Positions 46,421-58,712 of a stretch of 64,000 bases of DNA are shown here, one piece after another. Each line of letters begins with the position of its first letter. The first letter of the stretch is position 1. The DNA is taken from the NCBI RefSeq assembly GCF_025639805.1, contig NZ_CP106735.1:1180001-1244000 (forward strand), given 5' to 3'. The notes under the pieces are model-generated. The model was not told the DNA's origin. It worked only from the letters and a program-made list of their open reading frames with translations, and did not search any database. A program made the position numbers and the translations under genes. The stretch comes from Reichenbachiella carrageenanivorans (GTDB lineage: Bacteria > Bacteroidota > Bacteroidia > Cytophagales > Cyclobacteriaceae).

Positions 46421-48229
46421 TCAATTGATATGATCACCTCGCAATTGGCGAAAGCGTTTTCTGGCCTCTGCTACATAGACACTGCCAGGATATGTAATAA
46501 GAAAATTTTGGTAAATCTCCATCGCCTTGGTGTAATCATATAAATGCTTTTCATAAATCTCGGCAGATAAGAACATGGCATCGTCCCCCAAAATATCCGT
46601 AGGATATCCAGATAATATGGCTTGCAATTCTAAAAGTGCATTTTCAAAATTTCCCAATTCCAGATTTATTTTGGCCATTTTCCAATAGATCTCATCGGTA
46701 AGAGTGTGCCCTGGGTATCTTTTTAACATATTAGAAAAAGCACTCAGTGCGCTATCCTTTTTGTTTTGGAAGAGCATAAGTTCGATAGAAGCAAATTCTT
46801 TCATTACAAAATCTGATGAATCCAAAACGGTATTGTCTTGAATAAGCAAACTCAATGACATAGCATCATTGGCGATTTCACGTGTGGTTGCCATTTTCAA
46901 AATATCCAAGTGACTCTTGGCCAATTCGAAATTACCTTGAAAATAATTGAGCTGGGCATTTTTGAGTTTGGCTTCGTAACCAATCGGGCTGTCTTTATTA
47001 TCTTTTTCCACTTGTGAATAGAGTAATGTGGCTTCCCAAGGATCTTCTGTAAGCAAATAAATGTCACCTAGATTGAGCTTACTTTTCGCTTTTAATTCAG
47101 GATTGATCCGCGGAGCGGCGATTATTTCATTTAAGATGTTGATAGCAGAATCAAGTTCGTCGAGATAAAATGCATGAAGGAGTGCCTTGCTTCTATAGGC
47201 TTCTATGGTTTGAGCGTTTACTCCGATATCTAAAATCAATTGTTTGTAGTCATAGGTAAGTTCGCGAATGGCTTGAATCTCGACTGGAAAATCGTTTTTG
47301 ACTTTTTCTTCACGAGCTTTTATGATTTGTCTTCTGGAGATAATGTAATTTCCAGTATTTGGATATGCCTTGGATACATAACTATATATTTCTATGGCAT
47401 CGTCGTAGGCTTTATTTTCCAGTGCTATGTTTCCGATTTGCATCACACGGTTTCCAAAGGTTTTGTTCTTTTTATCCACAGCCCGGGCTTGGATATAAGC
47501 ACTCATAAAATCATTTTGCTGAAGGCTGACCCAGATAAGTAGTTCTGGATAAATATTTTCGTTGGGGTGCTTTTGAACTTTATCTATAAGGATGTCTTTG
47601 AAATTTTGAATGTCTTCTTCTTTTTGTAATAAGTTTTGAAGAATGTTTTTCACATAGGTGAGATTATTGGGTCGTAAACTAGCAAAGAGCAAATATTCAT
47701 CGATCATTTCTGAACGTTGATTGAGCAAACGATAAGTGTTGGCTAGTTCTAAAGCATAACTGGTTTTGTCTTTTTCGTTTTTTCTGGCCGATTGATAAGC
47801 CTGTAGTGCATAAGTGGTGAGTTGCTTACTAATAAAATACTGGGCAGCTGTTCGTATGAGGTATTTATTTTCTTTAGCTTTTTCTATAGTTTCAATAAAT
47901 ATTTTATCGGCCTTATCGATTTGCCCCATTTCTTGATAAAGAATCCCTTCGTCTATTTGATAATAAACATTAGTTGGATAATATTTCAGTGCTTTTTTGA
48001 GATACTTTTCAGCTGATTTATAATCAGCTGCAGCTATTAATATACTGAAGTAGTTATTATGAACCTGTTGGATATATTGTGGATTACTAGAAAGCTTTTC
48101 ATAAATATCTCGAGCTTTTTCTGTTTCGCCATTGATATAATATTCATTAGCTAGTTGTACCTGATCGGAATTTTGAGCCGCAACTAGGGTCGGAAGTATT
48201 ATTATACATAGATAAAAAAGTCTCTTCAT
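46421..48229 (-). CDS. Secreted tetratricopeptide-repeat protein
   Basis: 602 residues with a signal peptide (MKRLFYLCIIILPTLVAAQ). The rest is a tandem of about 12-14 TPR units, for example ANEYYINGETEKARDIYEKL, followed by SAEKYLKKALKYYPTNVYY and later FENALLELQAILSGYP. The C-terminal part resembles YbgF/BamD-like TPRs (YPGHTLTDEIYWKMA, ITYPGSVYVAEARKRF). It probably acts as a periplasmic scaffold; its partners are unknown. It is monocistronic and its start faces the presumed replication origin region. Confidence 0.88.
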   Translation of the reverse strand: MKRLFYLCIIILPTLVAAQNSDQVQLANEYYINGETEKARDIYEKLSSNPQYIQQVHNNYFSILIAAADYKSAEKYLKKALKYYPTNVYYQIDEGILYQEMGQIDKADKIFIETIEKAKENKYLIRTAAQYFISKQLTTYALQAYQSARKNEKDKTSYALELANTYRLLNQRSEMIDEYLLFASLRPNNLTYVKNILQNLLQKEEDIQNFKDILIDKVQKHPNENIYPELLIWVSLQQNDFMSAYIQARAVDKKNKTFGNRVMQIGNIALENKAYDDAIEIYSYVSKAYPNTGNYIISRRQIIKAREEKVKNDFPVEIQAIRELTYDYKQLILDIGVNAQTIEAYRSKALLHAFYLDELDSAINILNEIIAAPRINPELKAKSKLNLGDIYLLTEDPWEATLLYSQVEKDNKDSPIGYEAKLKNAQLNYFQGNFELAKSHLDILKMATTREIANDAMSLSLLIQDNTVLDSSDFVMKEFASIELMLFQNKKDSALSAFSNMLKRYPGHTLTDEIYWKMAKINLELGNFENALLELQAILSGYPTDILGDDAMFLSAEIYEKHLYDYTKAMEIYQNFLITYPGSVYVAEARKRFRQLRGDHIN

Positions 48230-48314
48230 TTTTCAGTTGTCCACACTTTGACCAAAACCTTAAAATAAAAATATAGATTAAAGAAATTATTATTCTTTAT
48301 TAAGGCTGGGGATA

Positions 48315-48323
48315 TGTGTATAA
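48315..48323 (-). promoter_or_regulatory. DnaA box (exact)
   Basis: The minus strand reads TTATACACA, matching TTATNCACA. Confidence 0.65.
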
Positions 48324-48381
48324 GTTTTTTTAAAATTTTGTTTTGTTATTGATTGGTGTATTACTCTGATATAACTACATC

Positions 48382-48390
48382 TTATTCACA
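48382..48390 (+). promoter_or_regulatory. DnaA box (exact)
   Basis: TTATTCACA matches TTATNCACA; a one-mismatch copy TTATCAACA follows at 48424-48432. Confidence 0.65.
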
Positions 48391-48596
48391 TCATAAGTTA
48401 TTGATTTTTAGTTTACTATTGACTTATCAACACTTCCTTTTCTTTTTGTGAATTACTTATTTACATCTACGTCTGGTTGGGAAAATTGTTGATAGTTGAT
48501 GACTTCTCTGGAGTTATCCTTTTCGATTGTTGAGTTGGTGGGTAATCTTAGAATTGTTCGCATGAGTTCACTGGTTATTCCACTTTGATAGACATC

Positions 48597-48605
48597 TTAT
48601 CCACA
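48597..48605 (+). promoter_or_regulatory. DnaA box (exact, highest-affinity form)
   Basis: TTATCCACA is the strongest consensus DnaA box. It ends 6 bases before the stop codon of the Ig-like lipoprotein gene. Confidence 0.7.
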
Positions 48606-48611
48606 CTGTTT

Positions 48612-50333
48612 TTAGAATGAAATCTCGATGTTTTCCAGTTCCCAGTTAGCTCGTACGTCAAATATTTCTGTGTAGAAATAAACGTCTTCTGGTGTTTCAT
48701 TTTTGAGTATGTTTCCATAAGACCATTGGCCATCTTCATTGTTGTCTATCATTACTCTGAAGGTGTATTTTCCTGGCTTCACATAAGGGAATTCAAAGGT
48801 TTTTGAATCTTTTACTTCGGATATGATATCATATTTGCTATTTACTAGTTGTAAGGTGAATGATTTATAATCTGTGTTGATAAATCCACTTACAGATCCT
48901 AATTGGTCTAGTGTTTTGAATTGATACTTATGCTTGACTGCTTCTGTACTATCTCCTTCTATACTGATGAAGGTTCCTTTTGGAAAAGTGAGTGAAATGG
49001 CTTGAGGATTGACTTGTGTGAAATAGGCATATTTAGCTTGTGATATGGAGTCTGTAAGTGTAGTGTCCCCATATATTTTGAGAAGCGTATCTATTTCAGT
49101 TGTGAGGTAGTCTTTGTCTATGAGAGTTTCGAATCTAAGTTCTGTTCTGTTTTGATTCCAGAGTATGGTACTATCTGCTATGACTTGTGTTTGTAATGTG
49201 TCATAGTGGATCAGTATACTATCCTTGTAGAAGGTTTCTATAGGTTTATCGAAGGTATAGTTATATTGGATCAATGGATCTATATAGGCTCCGTTTGTAG
49301 GTTTGAAACTGGCTGAGAACTTTTCAGGTTTTCTAGAGGTTTCTGTGAATTTGATATAGGTTGTATCAATTCGTTGGTTGAACATACTGTCGGTGGTGCT
49401 AAGTAATATACCAAGGCTGTCTACATCGTATTCGAATGTTTCACGTGGATAAAATCTGATGATCTGGTTTCCTTTTATTTTGTTGTTGGGTGGAATAGGT
49501 AGTTCGTTGAGTGAATCTAGTTTTGATATTTGATAATTTATGATCGATTTGTTGTATTGCGTATCAAAATATCTACCTGTCAATTTTGCTCTTACAAATT
49601 TGAATTCTGAAGCATTGATGAGTTGCGTGTGTATTCTTACAGAATCTTGTGATGTGGTAAGATCCAATGAATCTGCTAGGAAACCATGTGCTTCTTTATC
49701 TGGATTGAATATCAGATTTTTGTTTTCGTCTTTGAATGTTAAAATTTTATAGAATCCATTCTTAATGTTTTCGATTAAGAATTGTCCTTGCTCATTGGTT
49801 TTTGTAAAGTATCTGGGTTTGTCTTTGAGTAAGTCTATGGAATCTGTGATCTGATATAAACCTACTACAAAGTCTTTTTGATTTTCATTGTTATACAGAT
49901 TAGTGATTTTTCCATTGACATAAATGGAATCTATGTAATGACCTGTAGAAAAAGCAAAGCTTAGATTGATAGCAGGGTTCTTTTCAGTGACATCTACTAC
50001 GCCATCTGAGAAGTTGAGTGTGTAAGTAGTACTGTCCATAAACTTCTCATCGAAAGTAATAGTCAATTCGTTTTTTTTGACTTTGAGATTAAACTTATTT
50101 TCGATGTGTGGTGTGATGAGCAATTGACTTTTAAGCTTGTCAGCATTTACTCTTTCATTAAATACGTATTTGAATTCTTGGCCTTTGAAATTGATAGATT
50201 TGTTGGCAGGAGTGGATTCGATAAGTAGTGGTGGAATGGTATCACGAGGACCTCCAGTAGGTGTACCTTGGTTGGCACATGAGTATATATATACAGAAAG
50301 TAGAATTAGGAATATGGGGAATAGAGACTTCAT
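48612..50333 (-). CDS. Ig-like (Big_5) domain lipoprotein
   Basis: 573 residues. The lipobox is YSC with the lipidated cysteine near residue 19, followed by the family motif GTPTGGPRDTIPP. An SbsA-type Ig-like domain covers about residues 35-130 (PPLLIESTPANKSINF, TYTLNFSDGVVDV), then carboxypeptidase-regulatory-like modules with GQFLIENIKNGFYKILTFKD and a matching repeat near the C-terminus (YVKPGKYTFRVMIDNNEDG). It is widespread in Bacteroidota as an outer-membrane lipoprotein of unknown role. The 4-base overlap with the methyltransferase gene shows coupling. Its stop codon lies 6 bases from a DnaA box. Confidence 0.85.
   Translation of the reverse strand: MKSLFPIFLILLSVYIYSCANQGTPTGGPRDTIPPLLIESTPANKSINFKGQEFKYVFNERVNADKLKSQLLITPHIENKFNLKVKKNELTITFDEKFMDSTTYTLNFSDGVVDVTEKNPAINLSFAFSTGHYIDSIYVNGKITNLYNNENQKDFVVGLYQITDSIDLLKDKPRYFTKTNEQGQFLIENIKNGFYKILTFKDENKNLIFNPDKEAHGFLADSLDLTTSQDSVRIHTQLINASEFKFVRAKLTGRYFDTQYNKSIINYQISKLDSLNELPIPPNNKIKGNQIIRFYPRETFEYDVDSLGILLSTTDSMFNQRIDTTYIKFTETSRKPEKFSASFKPTNGAYIDPLIQYNYTFDKPIETFYKDSILIHYDTLQTQVIADSTILWNQNRTELRFETLIDKDYLTTEIDTLLKIYGDTTLTDSISQAKYAYFTQVNPQAISLTFPKGTFISIEGDSTEAVKHKYQFKTLDQLGSVSGFINTDYKSFTLQLVNSKYDIISEVKDSKTFEFPYVKPGKYTFRVMIDNNEDGQWSYGNILKNETPEDVYFYTEIFDVRANWELENIEISF
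49437..49452. promoter_or_regulatory. Degenerate parS-like sequence (14 of 16)
   Basis: TGTTTCACGTGGATAA matches TGTTNCACGTGNAACA at 14 of 16 positions, inside the Ig-like lipoprotein gene. ParB binding is uncertain. Confidence 0.25.
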
Positions 50334-51214
50334 GCTTTTTTGAATATATATATAAGACTAGAATAATTATTATTGTTGTTTTTAGCCCAAGTATTTGATT
50401 TCCAGCCGTTTATTATTGATTTTATGTAATTTATCTTTCCAAATTTATGTTTTTCACTGAGCATACTTACATAGTATGCATCTAATGTCATTGGCAAGAC
50501 TTCTTCTAGCTTGAACTGGTTATATTTCATCAGTTCTTTGATAGTCAGTTGATTGAAGTGATATAAATGTCTTGGTACGTCGTAGGCTGCCCAGTACTGT
50601 TTGTAGATTTGTTGATCTAGAGATTCGTGATTGGGAACAGCTATAACTAATCTACCTTTCTTAGATAAATGTTTTCTGAGGCTTTGAATGGTTTCATTGA
50701 GATCATGTACATGTTCTAAAACATGCCAGAGTGTGATAACTCCAAATTTCTTTTCGGGTAGGTCTTCTAATGATCCTACTACATTTAGATGATGATCTCT
50801 TATGGCTATTGTCCTGGCCATTTCATCGGGCTCTACTCCTATTGTTTTCCAGTCTTTATGCTGTTGTACATAGTTTAATAAATGACCTGTACCACAGCCA
50901 TAATCTAGTATAGATTTTTTAGGTGCTAATCTATTGATCAATTTGAATTTTTTTCTAAGTGTATAATTGCGTGCTAGCTTATATACTTTATTGATCAGGT
51001 TATTAGCTTGGTTGGTATGTGATATATAATCTTCGGACTGATAGTATGATCCAATAGAAGATTTGTTTGGTCGGGGTGATGTCAGGAGCAAGCCACAATT
51101 GCTACATTTCATAATTGCGAAACTCTCTTTTGAAACAGAGTGGTCGTCGCATATCATATGATTGGTAAACTCTTTTGAATTGCAAGAAGGACAGGGTTCT
51201 ACTTTTTCGTACAT
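50330..51214 (-). CDS. Zinc-ribbon class I SAM-dependent methyltransferase
   Basis: 294 residues. A zinc ribbon comes first (CPSCNSKEF and later KCSNCGLLLTSPRP), then a Rossmann methyltransferase with the SAM motif SILDYGCGTGHLL and VITLWHVLEHVHDLNETI. This layout is typical of methyltransferases that act on sugars or lipid-linked saccharides and small molecules; the substrate is unknown. It lies 4 bases after mnmG and overlaps the next gene by 4 bases, so it is in an operon with both. Confidence 0.87.
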   Translation of the reverse strand: MYEKVEPCPSCNSKEFTNHMICDDHSVSKESFAIMKCSNCGLLLTSPRPNKSSIGSYYQSEDYISHTNQANNLINKVYKLARNYTLRKKFKLINRLAPKKSILDYGCGTGHLLNYVQQHKDWKTIGVEPDEMARTIAIRDHHLNVVGSLEDLPEKKFGVITLWHVLEHVHDLNETIQSLRKHLSKKGRLVIAVPNHESLDQQIYKQYWAAYDVPRHLYHFNQLTIKELMKYNQFKLEEVLPMTLDAYYVSMLSEKHKFGKINYIKSIINGWKSNTWAKNNNNNYSSLIYIFKKA

Positions 51215-51218
51215 AAAT

Positions 51219-53081
51219 TTATCTAGCCATATAGACCATCAATACTGAAATATCTGCTGGATTGACTCCACTGATTCGGGAGGCTTGTCCTAGATTAGTT
51301 GGTTTAATATTAGAGAGTTTTTCTTTGGCTTCTGCAGACAGTGCTGGAATTCCTCGATAGTTGAAATCGTCTGGAATCTTCTTGTTGTCTAGGTTGCCCA
51401 TCTGATCAGCTAGACTTTTTTCTTTTTCAATATAGGTTTCATACTTTACTAAAATGGATGCCTGTTCTAATATTTCAGGGGATAGATCTTTTGTGATTTT
51501 GATCGCATCTGAATGAAAGGTTACAATTTCTTGAATATCTAATTCTGGTCTACGCAAGAAGTTAATCAGTGGTGTTTTTTCTTTGATTGTTGCTGAATTT
51601 ATTTCAGATAGTTTACCATTGATTTCTTCTGGTTTTACCTTGATCTTTCCGAGCTGTTTGATGAGATGATTGGTCTCATCTATTTTTTGATTCACTTTAT
51701 CTAATCGATCCTGTGAGGCCAGTCCCAGCTCATGTCCTATTGCTGTAAGTCGTACGTCGGCATTGTCTTGTCTGAGTAGGATTCTAAACTCTGCACGCGA
51801 AGTAAACATGCGATAAGGTTCGTCAGTTCCTTTGTTAATTAGGTCATCGATTAATACGCCGATGTAGGCTTCTGATCTTCCGAGTATAAAAGGATCTTTT
51901 TCATGGACTTTATTGTGCGCATTGATACCTGCCATAAGACCCTGACTAGCGGCTTCTTCATAACCAGTCGTGCCATTGATCTGTCCTGCGAAGTATAGAT
52001 TGTCGATCAATTTAGTTTCTAAAGTAGATTCTAATTGTGTAGGAGGAAAGTAATCGTACTCAATGGCATATCCAGGTCTAAACATTTTCACATTTTCAAA
52101 TCCTGGTATTTTAGTGATGGCTTTATATTGTACGTCTTCGGGTAGGCTGGTTGAAAATCCGTTAACATATATTTCTACAGTATCCCAGCCTTCTGGCTCT
52201 ACAAATATTTGATGTCTTTCGCGTTCTGCAAATCGATTGATTTTATCTTCTATAGATGGACAGTATCTTGGCCCTAGTCCTTTGATCCGACCAGTAAACA
52301 TAGGTGACTTTTCGAATCCTGTTTTCAATATCTCATGTACATCAGCATTGGTGTAAGTGATGTGACAAGGTCTTTGATTGGCCAAGGGTTTGGTATCTGT
52401 AAATGAAAATTTACCAGGTATTTCGTCACCAGGTTGTTCTTCCATTACCTTCCAATTGAGTGACCTTCCATCTACTCTTGGTGGAGTACCTGTCTTCATT
52501 CGTCCGGCTTCGAATCCAAGTTCAACAAGTTGTTCGGTTATTCCTGTGGCTGCTTTTTCTCCTGTTCTACCGCCACCAAATCGTTTTTCTCCAATATGAA
52601 TAATGCCATTGAGAAAAGTACCATTAGTGAGTACTACAGATTTACCCATGATTTCGATACCCATACTAGTCTTCACACCTACTACCCTGTTGTTTTTGAT
52701 CACTAATCCCGAGACCATTTCTTGCCAGAAATCTACATTAGGTGTTTTTTCTAGTGCGAGTCGCCATTCTTCCGCAAATCTCATTCTGTCGTTTTGCGTC
52801 CTTGGACTCCACATAGCTGGACCTTTAGACTTGTTGAGCATTCGAAATTGGATCATTGATTTATCGGAGATGATTCCTGAGTATCCTCCAAGTGCATCTA
52901 TTTCTCGAACGATCTGTCCTTTGGCTACACCTCCCATGGCAGGGTTGCACGACATTTGTGCTATGGTGTTCATATTCATGGTAACAAGCATTACTTTGGA
53001 TCCCATGTTGGCTGCTGCTGCTGCTGCTTCGCAACCAGCATGTCCTGCGCCTACTACTATTACATCATATTGTGGAAACAT
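51219..53081 (-). CDS. mnmG: tRNA uridine-5-carboxymethylaminomethyl modification enzyme MnmG (GidA)
   Basis: 620 residues, normal length. With MnmE it makes the cmnm5 group at wobble U34 of several tRNAs. The FAD fold begins VIVVGAGHAGCEAAAAAA, the conserved MSCNPAMGGVAKGQ follows, and the C-terminal helical domain (about 545-620) has NYRGIPALSAEAKEKL and GQASRISGVNPADIS. Two parS sites lie in its upstream region, and the DnaA-box cluster is 2.6 kb away. MnmG genes near oriC are common. It is followed by the methyltransferase gene after 4 bases. Confidence 0.97.
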   Translation of the reverse strand: MFPQYDVIVVGAGHAGCEAAAAAANMGSKVMLVTMNMNTIAQMSCNPAMGGVAKGQIVREIDALGGYSGIISDKSMIQFRMLNKSKGPAMWSPRTQNDRMRFAEEWRLALEKTPNVDFWQEMVSGLVIKNNRVVGVKTSMGIEIMGKSVVLTNGTFLNGIIHIGEKRFGGGRTGEKAATGITEQLVELGFEAGRMKTGTPPRVDGRSLNWKVMEEQPGDEIPGKFSFTDTKPLANQRPCHITYTNADVHEILKTGFEKSPMFTGRIKGLGPRYCPSIEDKINRFAERERHQIFVEPEGWDTVEIYVNGFSTSLPEDVQYKAITKIPGFENVKMFRPGYAIEYDYFPPTQLESTLETKLIDNLYFAGQINGTTGYEEAASQGLMAGINAHNKVHEKDPFILGRSEAYIGVLIDDLINKGTDEPYRMFTSRAEFRILLRQDNADVRLTAIGHELGLASQDRLDKVNQKIDETNHLIKQLGKIKVKPEEINGKLSEINSATIKEKTPLINFLRRPELDIQEIVTFHSDAIKITKDLSPEILEQASILVKYETYIEKEKSLADQMGNLDNKKIPDDFNYRGIPALSAEAKEKLSNIKPTNLGQASRISGVNPADISVLMVYMAR

Positions 53082-53095
53082 GAATTATCTACTTA

Positions 53096-53111
53096 TGTTC
53101 CACGTGAAACA
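53096..53111. promoter_or_regulatory. parS site (exact consensus)
   Basis: TGTTCCACGTGAAACA matches the ParB-binding consensus TGTTNCACGTGNAACA at every position, 14 bases upstream of the mnmG ATG. Confidence 0.8.
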
Positions 53112-53132: not shown

Positions 53133-53148
53133 TGTTCCACGTGAAACG
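53133..53148. promoter_or_regulatory. Second parS site (15 of 16)
   Basis: TGTTCCACGTGAAACG differs from the consensus only at the last base and lies 37 bases from the first site, in the same orientation. Two neighbouring copies in an 80-base gap make chance unlikely. Confidence 0.75.
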
Positions 53149-57323: not shown

Positions 57324-58712
57324 TTAATAGGTTTGGGGCGAGTCAAAATACATAAATTTTACAGATTCATTCAAACTACTATTTTCTTTAATACCTGATA
57401 AAGTATTACTGTAAATAACATACTCTGGAAAACGATCAAGAATTATATATTTTGCCAATTCTCTGTTTTTTAGATTTTCAACTAATGTTTGTAATGTTTT
57501 ACTTTCATCGTTTGAATCTAATAAATCCAATGATATTTCTTTTAGTACGATATGTGGCTGGGTAGGATCTATATTTTCTGGATTTGTCTGACTAAAGTTT
57601 ATATTTTTTGAGTTTGACAGATATGGTTTTTGTTTTCCTGAGATCTTGGTGTACCATTTTATTTTAAATAGAGTAGTGTCATTCTTGCTTTCCGTTTTCA
57701 AGGAGTCCAGATTATAACTTTCTATAGAGACATTAGAACCTAAGTGAATAAATTGACCTTTTTCTTTAGGTAGGCAATGGAGTACTTTTTTAATTAATAA
57801 TGAATCTTGAATATTATTGAGTTGAGCATATCTTATGATTACTCTTTTGCTAGTAGTCACTTGGTATTCAGGATATTTTGTATTGATGATGTGGTTCATT
57901 TTATTGGTTTGTGGCGAGGGTGTTTTATGGAGTGGTTGGTAGGTAATTAAATCAAGAGATCCTCTGAAAAATTCGGCATATACTAAATCATCATTTTTAG
58001 TAAAACTGATATTGATGGTCTCAATTGGTGACTCTGCAAAGGCTGTTTTGTTTAATTGAGCTGATATATCTTCATTCATACTTGTTAACAGATAGGCTCC
58101 AGTGCCTATATATTCGCCCTTTGCTTGCTTAAAAAGTGTAAAAAGGGGAGACTGTAGCCAGGTCAATATTTCCTGATGTCTGGTATTTAGTTTTATACTA
58201 AATTTTGAATCGCTAATGATCTGAAAACCCTGTGGGAGGCTATCGACTATGCCTCTGTTCTTTCTATACCAATTAATAGAAGGATAACCCTCCATTGATG
58301 TAAAGAATGCTGATACAGGCTCTTCATTTAGGTGATGTGCAATTAAGTATTTAAAAAATGTTTTGATGGATTTTGTATCTATTCTTGTGCCATCGTGAAA
58401 TTGTTTTTTTGGATATAGATCGAAATAATGTGTGTCAGCTAGTGTATCGTAGGTGTATTTGCTGACGATCATGCTGTTTTGGTTTGATTCAAATAAACGG
58501 TCGAATACGAGTGCTGCAATAAATTTTTCCGCATCGTTTTTCGCCCTTAAAGGGTTAAGTCGGATGACATTGTCGTGGAAATTTAGGTTTAAGGTTTTGT
58601 TATTTGATATAGGTGAGAAATCGTGTGTGCTCTGTTTTGTTTCACATGAAACAAAACAGAGTGCCAGTAAGGCCAAGCTTAAAATTGTTGAATATGGCCA
58701 GGTTTTTCTCAT
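57324..58712 (-). CDS. Family 5 extracellular solute-binding lipoprotein
   Basis: 462 residues with a lipobox CFVSC (lipidated Cys near residue 23). The fold is that of oligopeptide and nickel-binding proteins (SBP_bac_5): LNFHDNVIRLNPLRAKND, then LVFDRLFESNQNS, FDLYPKKQFHDGTRIDTKS and GTGAYLLTSM are the usual landmarks. The C-terminal third is shorter than in OppA. No permease genes are near, so it may have another role. Its start overlaps the 120-residue gene upstream by 4 bases. A 28-bp near-perfect palindrome lies inside its signal-peptide coding region. Confidence 0.82.
   Translation of the reverse strand: MRKTWPYSTILSLALLALCFVSCETKQSTHDFSPISNNKTLNLNFHDNVIRLNPLRAKNDAEKFIAALVFDRLFESNQNSMIVSKYTYDTLADTHYFDLYPKKQFHDGTRIDTKSIKTFFKYLIAHHLNEEPVSAFFTSMEGYPSINWYRKNRGIVDSLPQGFQIISDSKFSIKLNTRHQEILTWLQSPLFTLFKQAKGEYIGTGAYLLTSMNEDISAQLNKTAFAESPIETINISFTKNDDLVYAEFFRGSLDLITYQPLHKTPSPQTNKMNHIINTKYPEYQVTTSKRVIIRYAQLNNIQDSLLIKKVLHCLPKEKGQFIHLGSNVSIESYNLDSLKTESKNDTTLFKIKWYTKISGKQKPYLSNSKNINFSQTNPENIDPTQPHIVLKEISLDLLDSNDESKTLQTLVENLKNRELAKYIILDRFPEYVIYSNTLSGIKENSSLNESVKFMYFDSPQTY
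58632..58659. promoter_or_regulatory. 28-bp near-perfect palindrome containing a parS-like core
   Basis: The two 14-base arms match at 13 positions. The core TGTTTCACATGAAACA (58638-58653) differs from parS at one base, G to A in the central CACGTG. It lies inside the coding region of the solute-binding lipoprotein, over the lipobox-proximal codons. Confidence 0.5.

Follow-up and report, generated by a model that had tools for sequence, protein, structure and literature searches.

In Escherichia coli, the chromosomal origin of replication is located between gidA and mioC (PMC10225481). In Bacteroidetes, oriC has been reported to lie commonly far from dnaA, as in the predicted oriC of Prevotella intermedia chromosome I, which is a cluster of DnaA boxes at a GC-skew switch (PMC4755523). 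Origins of gut bacteria, including two Bacteroidetes, have been located by parS clusters and GC skew, and are described as not systematically coincident with dnaA (PMC10197239). According to a 2026 paper, oriC annotations made automatically are sometimes inaccurate (PMC13342612).

The stretch of DNA analyzed here (the window) comprises 64,000 nt, positions 1,180,001-1,244,000 of the single-contig 4,812,735-bp (4.81 Mb) chromosome of Reichenbachiella carrageenanivorans. The initial annotation had proposed a 382-bp intergenic gap in this window as oriC, and this proposal is supported by GC skew, by a DnaA-box cluster and by the recurrence of boxes, parS-like sites and gene order in relatives. 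Judged from the sequence, the gap at 48230..48611 is very probably the oriC of this chromosome. Among the oriC traits tested, the gap shows an intergenic DnaA-box cluster, an AT-rich and easily melted element beside a box (by calculated stability), a position at the skew minimum opposite the maximum, nearby parS-like sites (a usual trait that is not required) and conservation in relatives, with exceptions; it does not adjoin dnaA, the common bacterial layout. The locus resembles the P. intermedia origin in combining a box cluster with a skew switch far from dnaA (PMC4755523), and it resembles the gut-bacteria origins in being marked by a parS cluster, although those origins have coverage and Hi-C support and the evidence for the Reichenbachiella gap comes from sequence (PMC10197239). 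The elements of the gap are as follows.

48230..48611, no strand, proposed oriC; intergenic gap, 382 bp, 71% A+T
48237..48245, plus strand, DnaA-box-like TTGTCCACA, 1 mismatch; TCCACA kept in 7/7 aligned sequences (window and 6 congeners)
48254..48303, no strand, proposed duplex unwinding element with ATT-type repeats; least stable stretch by calculated stability
48315..48323, minus strand, exact DnaA box TTATACACA; in place in 7/7 aligned sequences, one copy mismatched
48382..48390, plus strand, exact DnaA box TTATTCACA; aligned set has TTATTCACA in 3/7 and TTATCTACA in 4/7
48424..48432, plus strand, DnaA-box-like TTATCAACA, 1 mismatch; from box search and congener alignment
48447..48455, minus strand, DnaA-box-like TAATTCACA, 1 mismatch
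48457..48465, plus strand, DnaA-box-like TTATTTACA, 1 mismatch
48597..48605, plus strand, exact DnaA box TTATCCACA; 6 bp from the lipoprotein gene end, invariant in the 7 aligned sequences

The search recovered the three exact boxes (48315 on the minus strand, 48382 and 48597 on the plus strand) and the four one-mismatch boxes (starting at 48237, 48424, 48447 and 48457) that had been described for the gap. A weaker box-like TATCCCC follows the 48315 box on the minus strand, toward the AT-rich element. Over the whole window, exact boxes were in mild excess (7 against 3.26 expected, with 5 of 100 shuffles reaching 7) and boxes with at most one mismatch showed no excess (71 against 78.8 expected); because these counts are barely or not in excess, the box signal consists in clustering. 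In 1.156 Mb of sampled sequence from the same genome, which held 51 exact boxes (0.044/kb), the gap was the best 400-bp box cluster; at the sampled rate, about 0.01 places with three exact boxes per 382 bp would be expected genome-wide (Poisson estimate). Across the genome, 178 of the 181 exact TTATNCACA sites were inspected by eye (every one of the 78 S-type sites and 100 of 103 W-type sites; the remaining three W-type sites all lie beyond 4.66 Mb), and among them no place other than the gap had three exact boxes per 400 bp. A promoter and terminator scan found a single terminator-like site in the gap, at 48498-48518 on the plus strand.

The genes around the gap, all encoded on the minus strand, are listed below.

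46421..48229, minus strand, TPR-repeat protein, left neighbour; start codon abuts the gap
48612..50333, minus strand, Ig-like (Big_5) lipoprotein-like protein, right neighbour; stop codon abuts the gap
50330..51214, minus strand, methyltransferase-domain protein; ORF and domain match
51219..53081, minus strand, mnmG/gidA; Pfam GIDA, PF01134, E 6.6e-163

The distance of 2.6 kb between the gap and mnmG/gidA and the shared direction of transcription on its two sides, both noted earlier, were confirmed. As in E. coli, where the origin is on the gidA side, the gap is thus a few kb from mnmG/gidA (PMC10225481); unlike in E. coli, methyltransferase and lipoprotein genes lie between mnmG and the gap and run toward it. 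The three genes from mnmG to the lipoprotein gene (48612-53081) point toward the origin and would be head-on to a rightward fork.

At the scale of the chromosome, the sign of GC skew in 40 evenly spaced 20-kb samples changed once at the window and once opposite to it. Skew was below zero in every sample up to the one at 1.21 Mb, above zero between 1.33 and 3.61 Mb (only just at 1.45 Mb) and below zero again from the 3.73-Mb sample onward. Over 396 contiguous kb, cumulative skew reached its minimum at window position 46,696, 1.5 kb to the left of the gap and inside the 46-50 kb interval predicted by the initial annotation; the skew change that the annotation had read from short segments holds at the chromosome scale, in both the samples and the cumulative curve. 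The skew maximum, located in 240 contiguous kb near the opposite pole, is at 3,642,940, and the point opposite the gap is at 3,634,787. Measured from the gap, the replichores are 2,414,520 and 2,398,215 bp long, a difference of 0.3% of the chromosome. Third-codon-position skew, read on the plus strand, had negative values throughout the 10 bins of 20 kb to the left of 1,228,001 and positive values in the 5 bins that follow on the right, in each case for plus-strand as well as minus-strand genes. The switch is therefore not accounted for by gene direction. Further to the right, negative exceptions were bin 1,328,001 on both strands and bin 1,368,001 on plus-strand genes. Third-position skew had its minimum about 6 kb to the left of the gap, and values were already positive for the genes nearest the gap on that side.

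The offset of the raw minimum, which falls in the TPR gene where a further exact box is found (47472), would fit an origin within a few kb of the gap but outside it, with the boxes in the gap serving DnaA titration or regulation. Skew minima carry kilobase noise, and it is in the gap itself that the boxes cluster, stability is low and the intergenic layout is conserved, so such an arrangement is very improbable and an origin inside the gap is strongly preferred.

The AT-rich stretch described initially was also borne out, as the 50 bp of lowest calculated stability in the gap begin at 48254. The gap is one of four places in 396 kb with such low stability, and the AT-rich block is conserved in the alignment of the window with six congeners. 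The basal unwinding system of bacterial origins has been described as a box, a spacer and DnaA-trios, with at least three 3'-NAN-5' trios no more than 16 bp from the box (PMC8287927). Using a loose test, 3'-NAN-5' runs were found beside boxes in 25 gaps, the one studied here and those of related genomes, but AT-rich DNA makes this test non-discriminating: the longest run beside a box averaged 4.76 in these AT-rich gaps, and the corresponding averages were 4.77 for shuffles and 4.72 for the opposite side of the boxes. A TTATTATTATTTATTA-like repeat beside tandem boxes was noticed by eye and is mentioned as a lead.

Comparison with related genomes showed that the order mnmG, methyltransferase, Ig-like lipoprotein, gap and TPR gene, with boxes in the gap, is common, with exceptions. 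A match to the lipoprotein gene was found in all 39 genomes (own included), and a TPR gene was found across the gap in 25 of the 30 loci fetched (own included), being absent in L088, L090, L095, L096 and L097. The 25 gaps, again including that of R. carrageenanivorans, held 59 exact boxes in 10,878 bp, compared to 0.01-0.12 expected per gap from shuffles; two of them (L076 and L094) held no exact box. Within the genus, the gap was aligned for the window and six of seven relatives, G006 being left out for its longer gap. The G006 locus (L075) is identical over its full length to part of a Reichenbachiella versicolor contig (L138), which places the window in the GTDB genus of that species. All seven aligned sequences carry the boxes of 48315, 48382 and 48597 at the corresponding positions, though not every copy is exact. 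Moreover, a profile of the AT-rich half of the gap matched 10 of 18 other gaps at E < 1e-4.

A wider scan of named genomes covered the best 80 of 586 confirmed relatives, of which 77 had at least 600 bp downstream of the lipoprotein gene and 3 were dropped. At these 77 loci from the best 80 of 586, 197 exact boxes (2.56/kb) were counted in the 1 kb that follows the lipoprotein gene, as compared to 38 in 555 kb (0.068/kb) for the gene and its upstream flank. Within the same set, at least one exact box followed the lipoprotein gene at 58 loci and none at 19; the TPR gene was next at 56, mnmG was upstream at 67 and the methyltransferase gene was found at 56. Boxes were present in 49 of the 56 loci with a TPR neighbour and in 9 of the 21 without it, and seven loci without a detected TPR neighbour (L196, L205-L209 and L213) hold 2 to 11 boxes; boxes are not strictly tied to a TPR junction. 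In six Pontibacter loci and one Botryobacter locus (L173, L180, L181, L183, L189, L193 and L199), no TPR neighbour was detected and there was at most one exact box, suggesting that the origin of those genomes is elsewhere than beside the lipoprotein gene.

Skew was also sampled in relatives. In the congener G005, its sign changed between the 0.10- and 0.31-Mb samples, with the gap at 0.31 Mb, and was negative again by the 2.80-Mb sample. G033, a distant relative from another family, gave no skew support; its skew is weak, with the sampled minimum at 2.01 Mb versus a gap near 1.75 Mb, and its gap region holds one exact box.

Three parS-like sites were identified to the right of the gap.

53096..53111, plus strand, parS-like TGTTCCACGTGAAACA; just upstream of mnmG
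53133..53148, plus strand, parS-like TGTTCCACGTGAAACG; just upstream of mnmG
58638..58653, plus strand, parS-like TGTTTCACATGAAACA

The first two are those that had been reported 4.5 kb from the gap, and the third, at 58638, is an addition to them. With at most one mismatch to TGTTYCACGTGRAACA, these are the only three sites in the whole genome, all in the window and 4.5-10 kb from the gap. Allowing up to two mismatches, 7 sites were found genome-wide against 9 for the reversed control; as this is no excess, only sites with at most one mismatch were used. Parallel searches found parS-like sites at the homologous locus in all eight relatives searched; of the 19 sites, 18 are no more than about 10 kb from that locus and the remaining one (in G028) is elsewhere; the reversed control gave none in seven of the eight relatives and two in G020.

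Neither dnaA nor parAB is found nearby, in agreement with the initial annotation: dnaA is 1.74 Mb and parB 2.33 Mb away. Bacterial oriCs usually adjoin dnaA (PMC10225481), and a single exact DnaA box (2964994-2965002) is located upstream of dnaA, where it may reflect autoregulation; these two points would speak for an origin beside dnaA, with the skew at the gap due to another cause such as an old inversion. The evidence from this and related genomes makes such an origin extremely improbable. The dnaA gene, at 2.964 Mb and 0.36 of the circle from the gap, is inside the positive-skew arm with positive samples on either side, and the 20 kb around it contain no cluster among the top 15; an origin beside dnaA was rejected on these grounds. 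Furthermore, the parS-like sites are near the gap and not near dnaA, and no less than 0.76 Mb separates the best dnaA match from the homologous locus in 7/7 genomes, own included (distances in relatives were taken by hand, with some genome lengths rounded).

The separation of dnaA and parAB from the locus had been called unusual in the initial annotation; it holds for the best matches in all seven genomes checked, and remote dnaA has been reported as common in Bacteroidetes (PMC4755523). Because of that report, the gap of R. carrageenanivorans is regarded as a typical origin of its phylum whose local gene order is well preserved. More curious than the origin is the distance between parS and parB, the latter being on the terminus side in the genus. 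The best parB match is near the terminus, 0.48 of the circle from the gap; the corresponding fraction is 0.48-0.49 for two congeners and 0.35-0.39 for three single-contig genomes that are less closely related. An apparent parA-parB pair was observed at 3558809-3560531, about 83 kb from the skew maximum and adjoining a yidC-like gene; the yidC and parA names in this run are putative assignments of ORFs.

Taken together, initiation at the gap would most likely proceed as follows. DnaA, which carries its three standard Pfam domains, would be supplied from a gene 1.74 Mb away and would bind the conserved boxes. A DnaA filament would then, most likely, open the AT-rich region (about 48254-48303) next to the 48315 box on the minus strand. 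After helicase loading, two forks would depart and meet near 3.64 Mb. ParB made from the near-terminus gene would bind the parS-like sites 4.5-10 kb to the right of the gap and aid the separation of new origins.

A search of titles and abstract openings found no description of the mnmG-methyltransferase-lipoprotein-TPR order around an origin, and a search for oriC, Cytophagales and GC skew found no paper. Taking into consideration the positions of these genes, it is likely that an ancestral origin cluster was split in this lineage, with mnmG and parS remaining at oriC, dnaA now located on one arm and yidC-parA-parB close to the terminus, so that initiation and segregation proteins would be made far from their sites, with parB at low dosage. 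The order mnmG, methyltransferase, Ig-like lipoprotein, oriC and TPR gene would then be an ancient origin marker in this Bacteroidota order. That parS is close to the origin and parB close to the terminus is a testable arrangement. In a group where dnaA is of no use for orienting genomes, the locus would provide both an origin and a gene-order marker, which could be used in coverage-based growth-rate estimates and in genome numbering.
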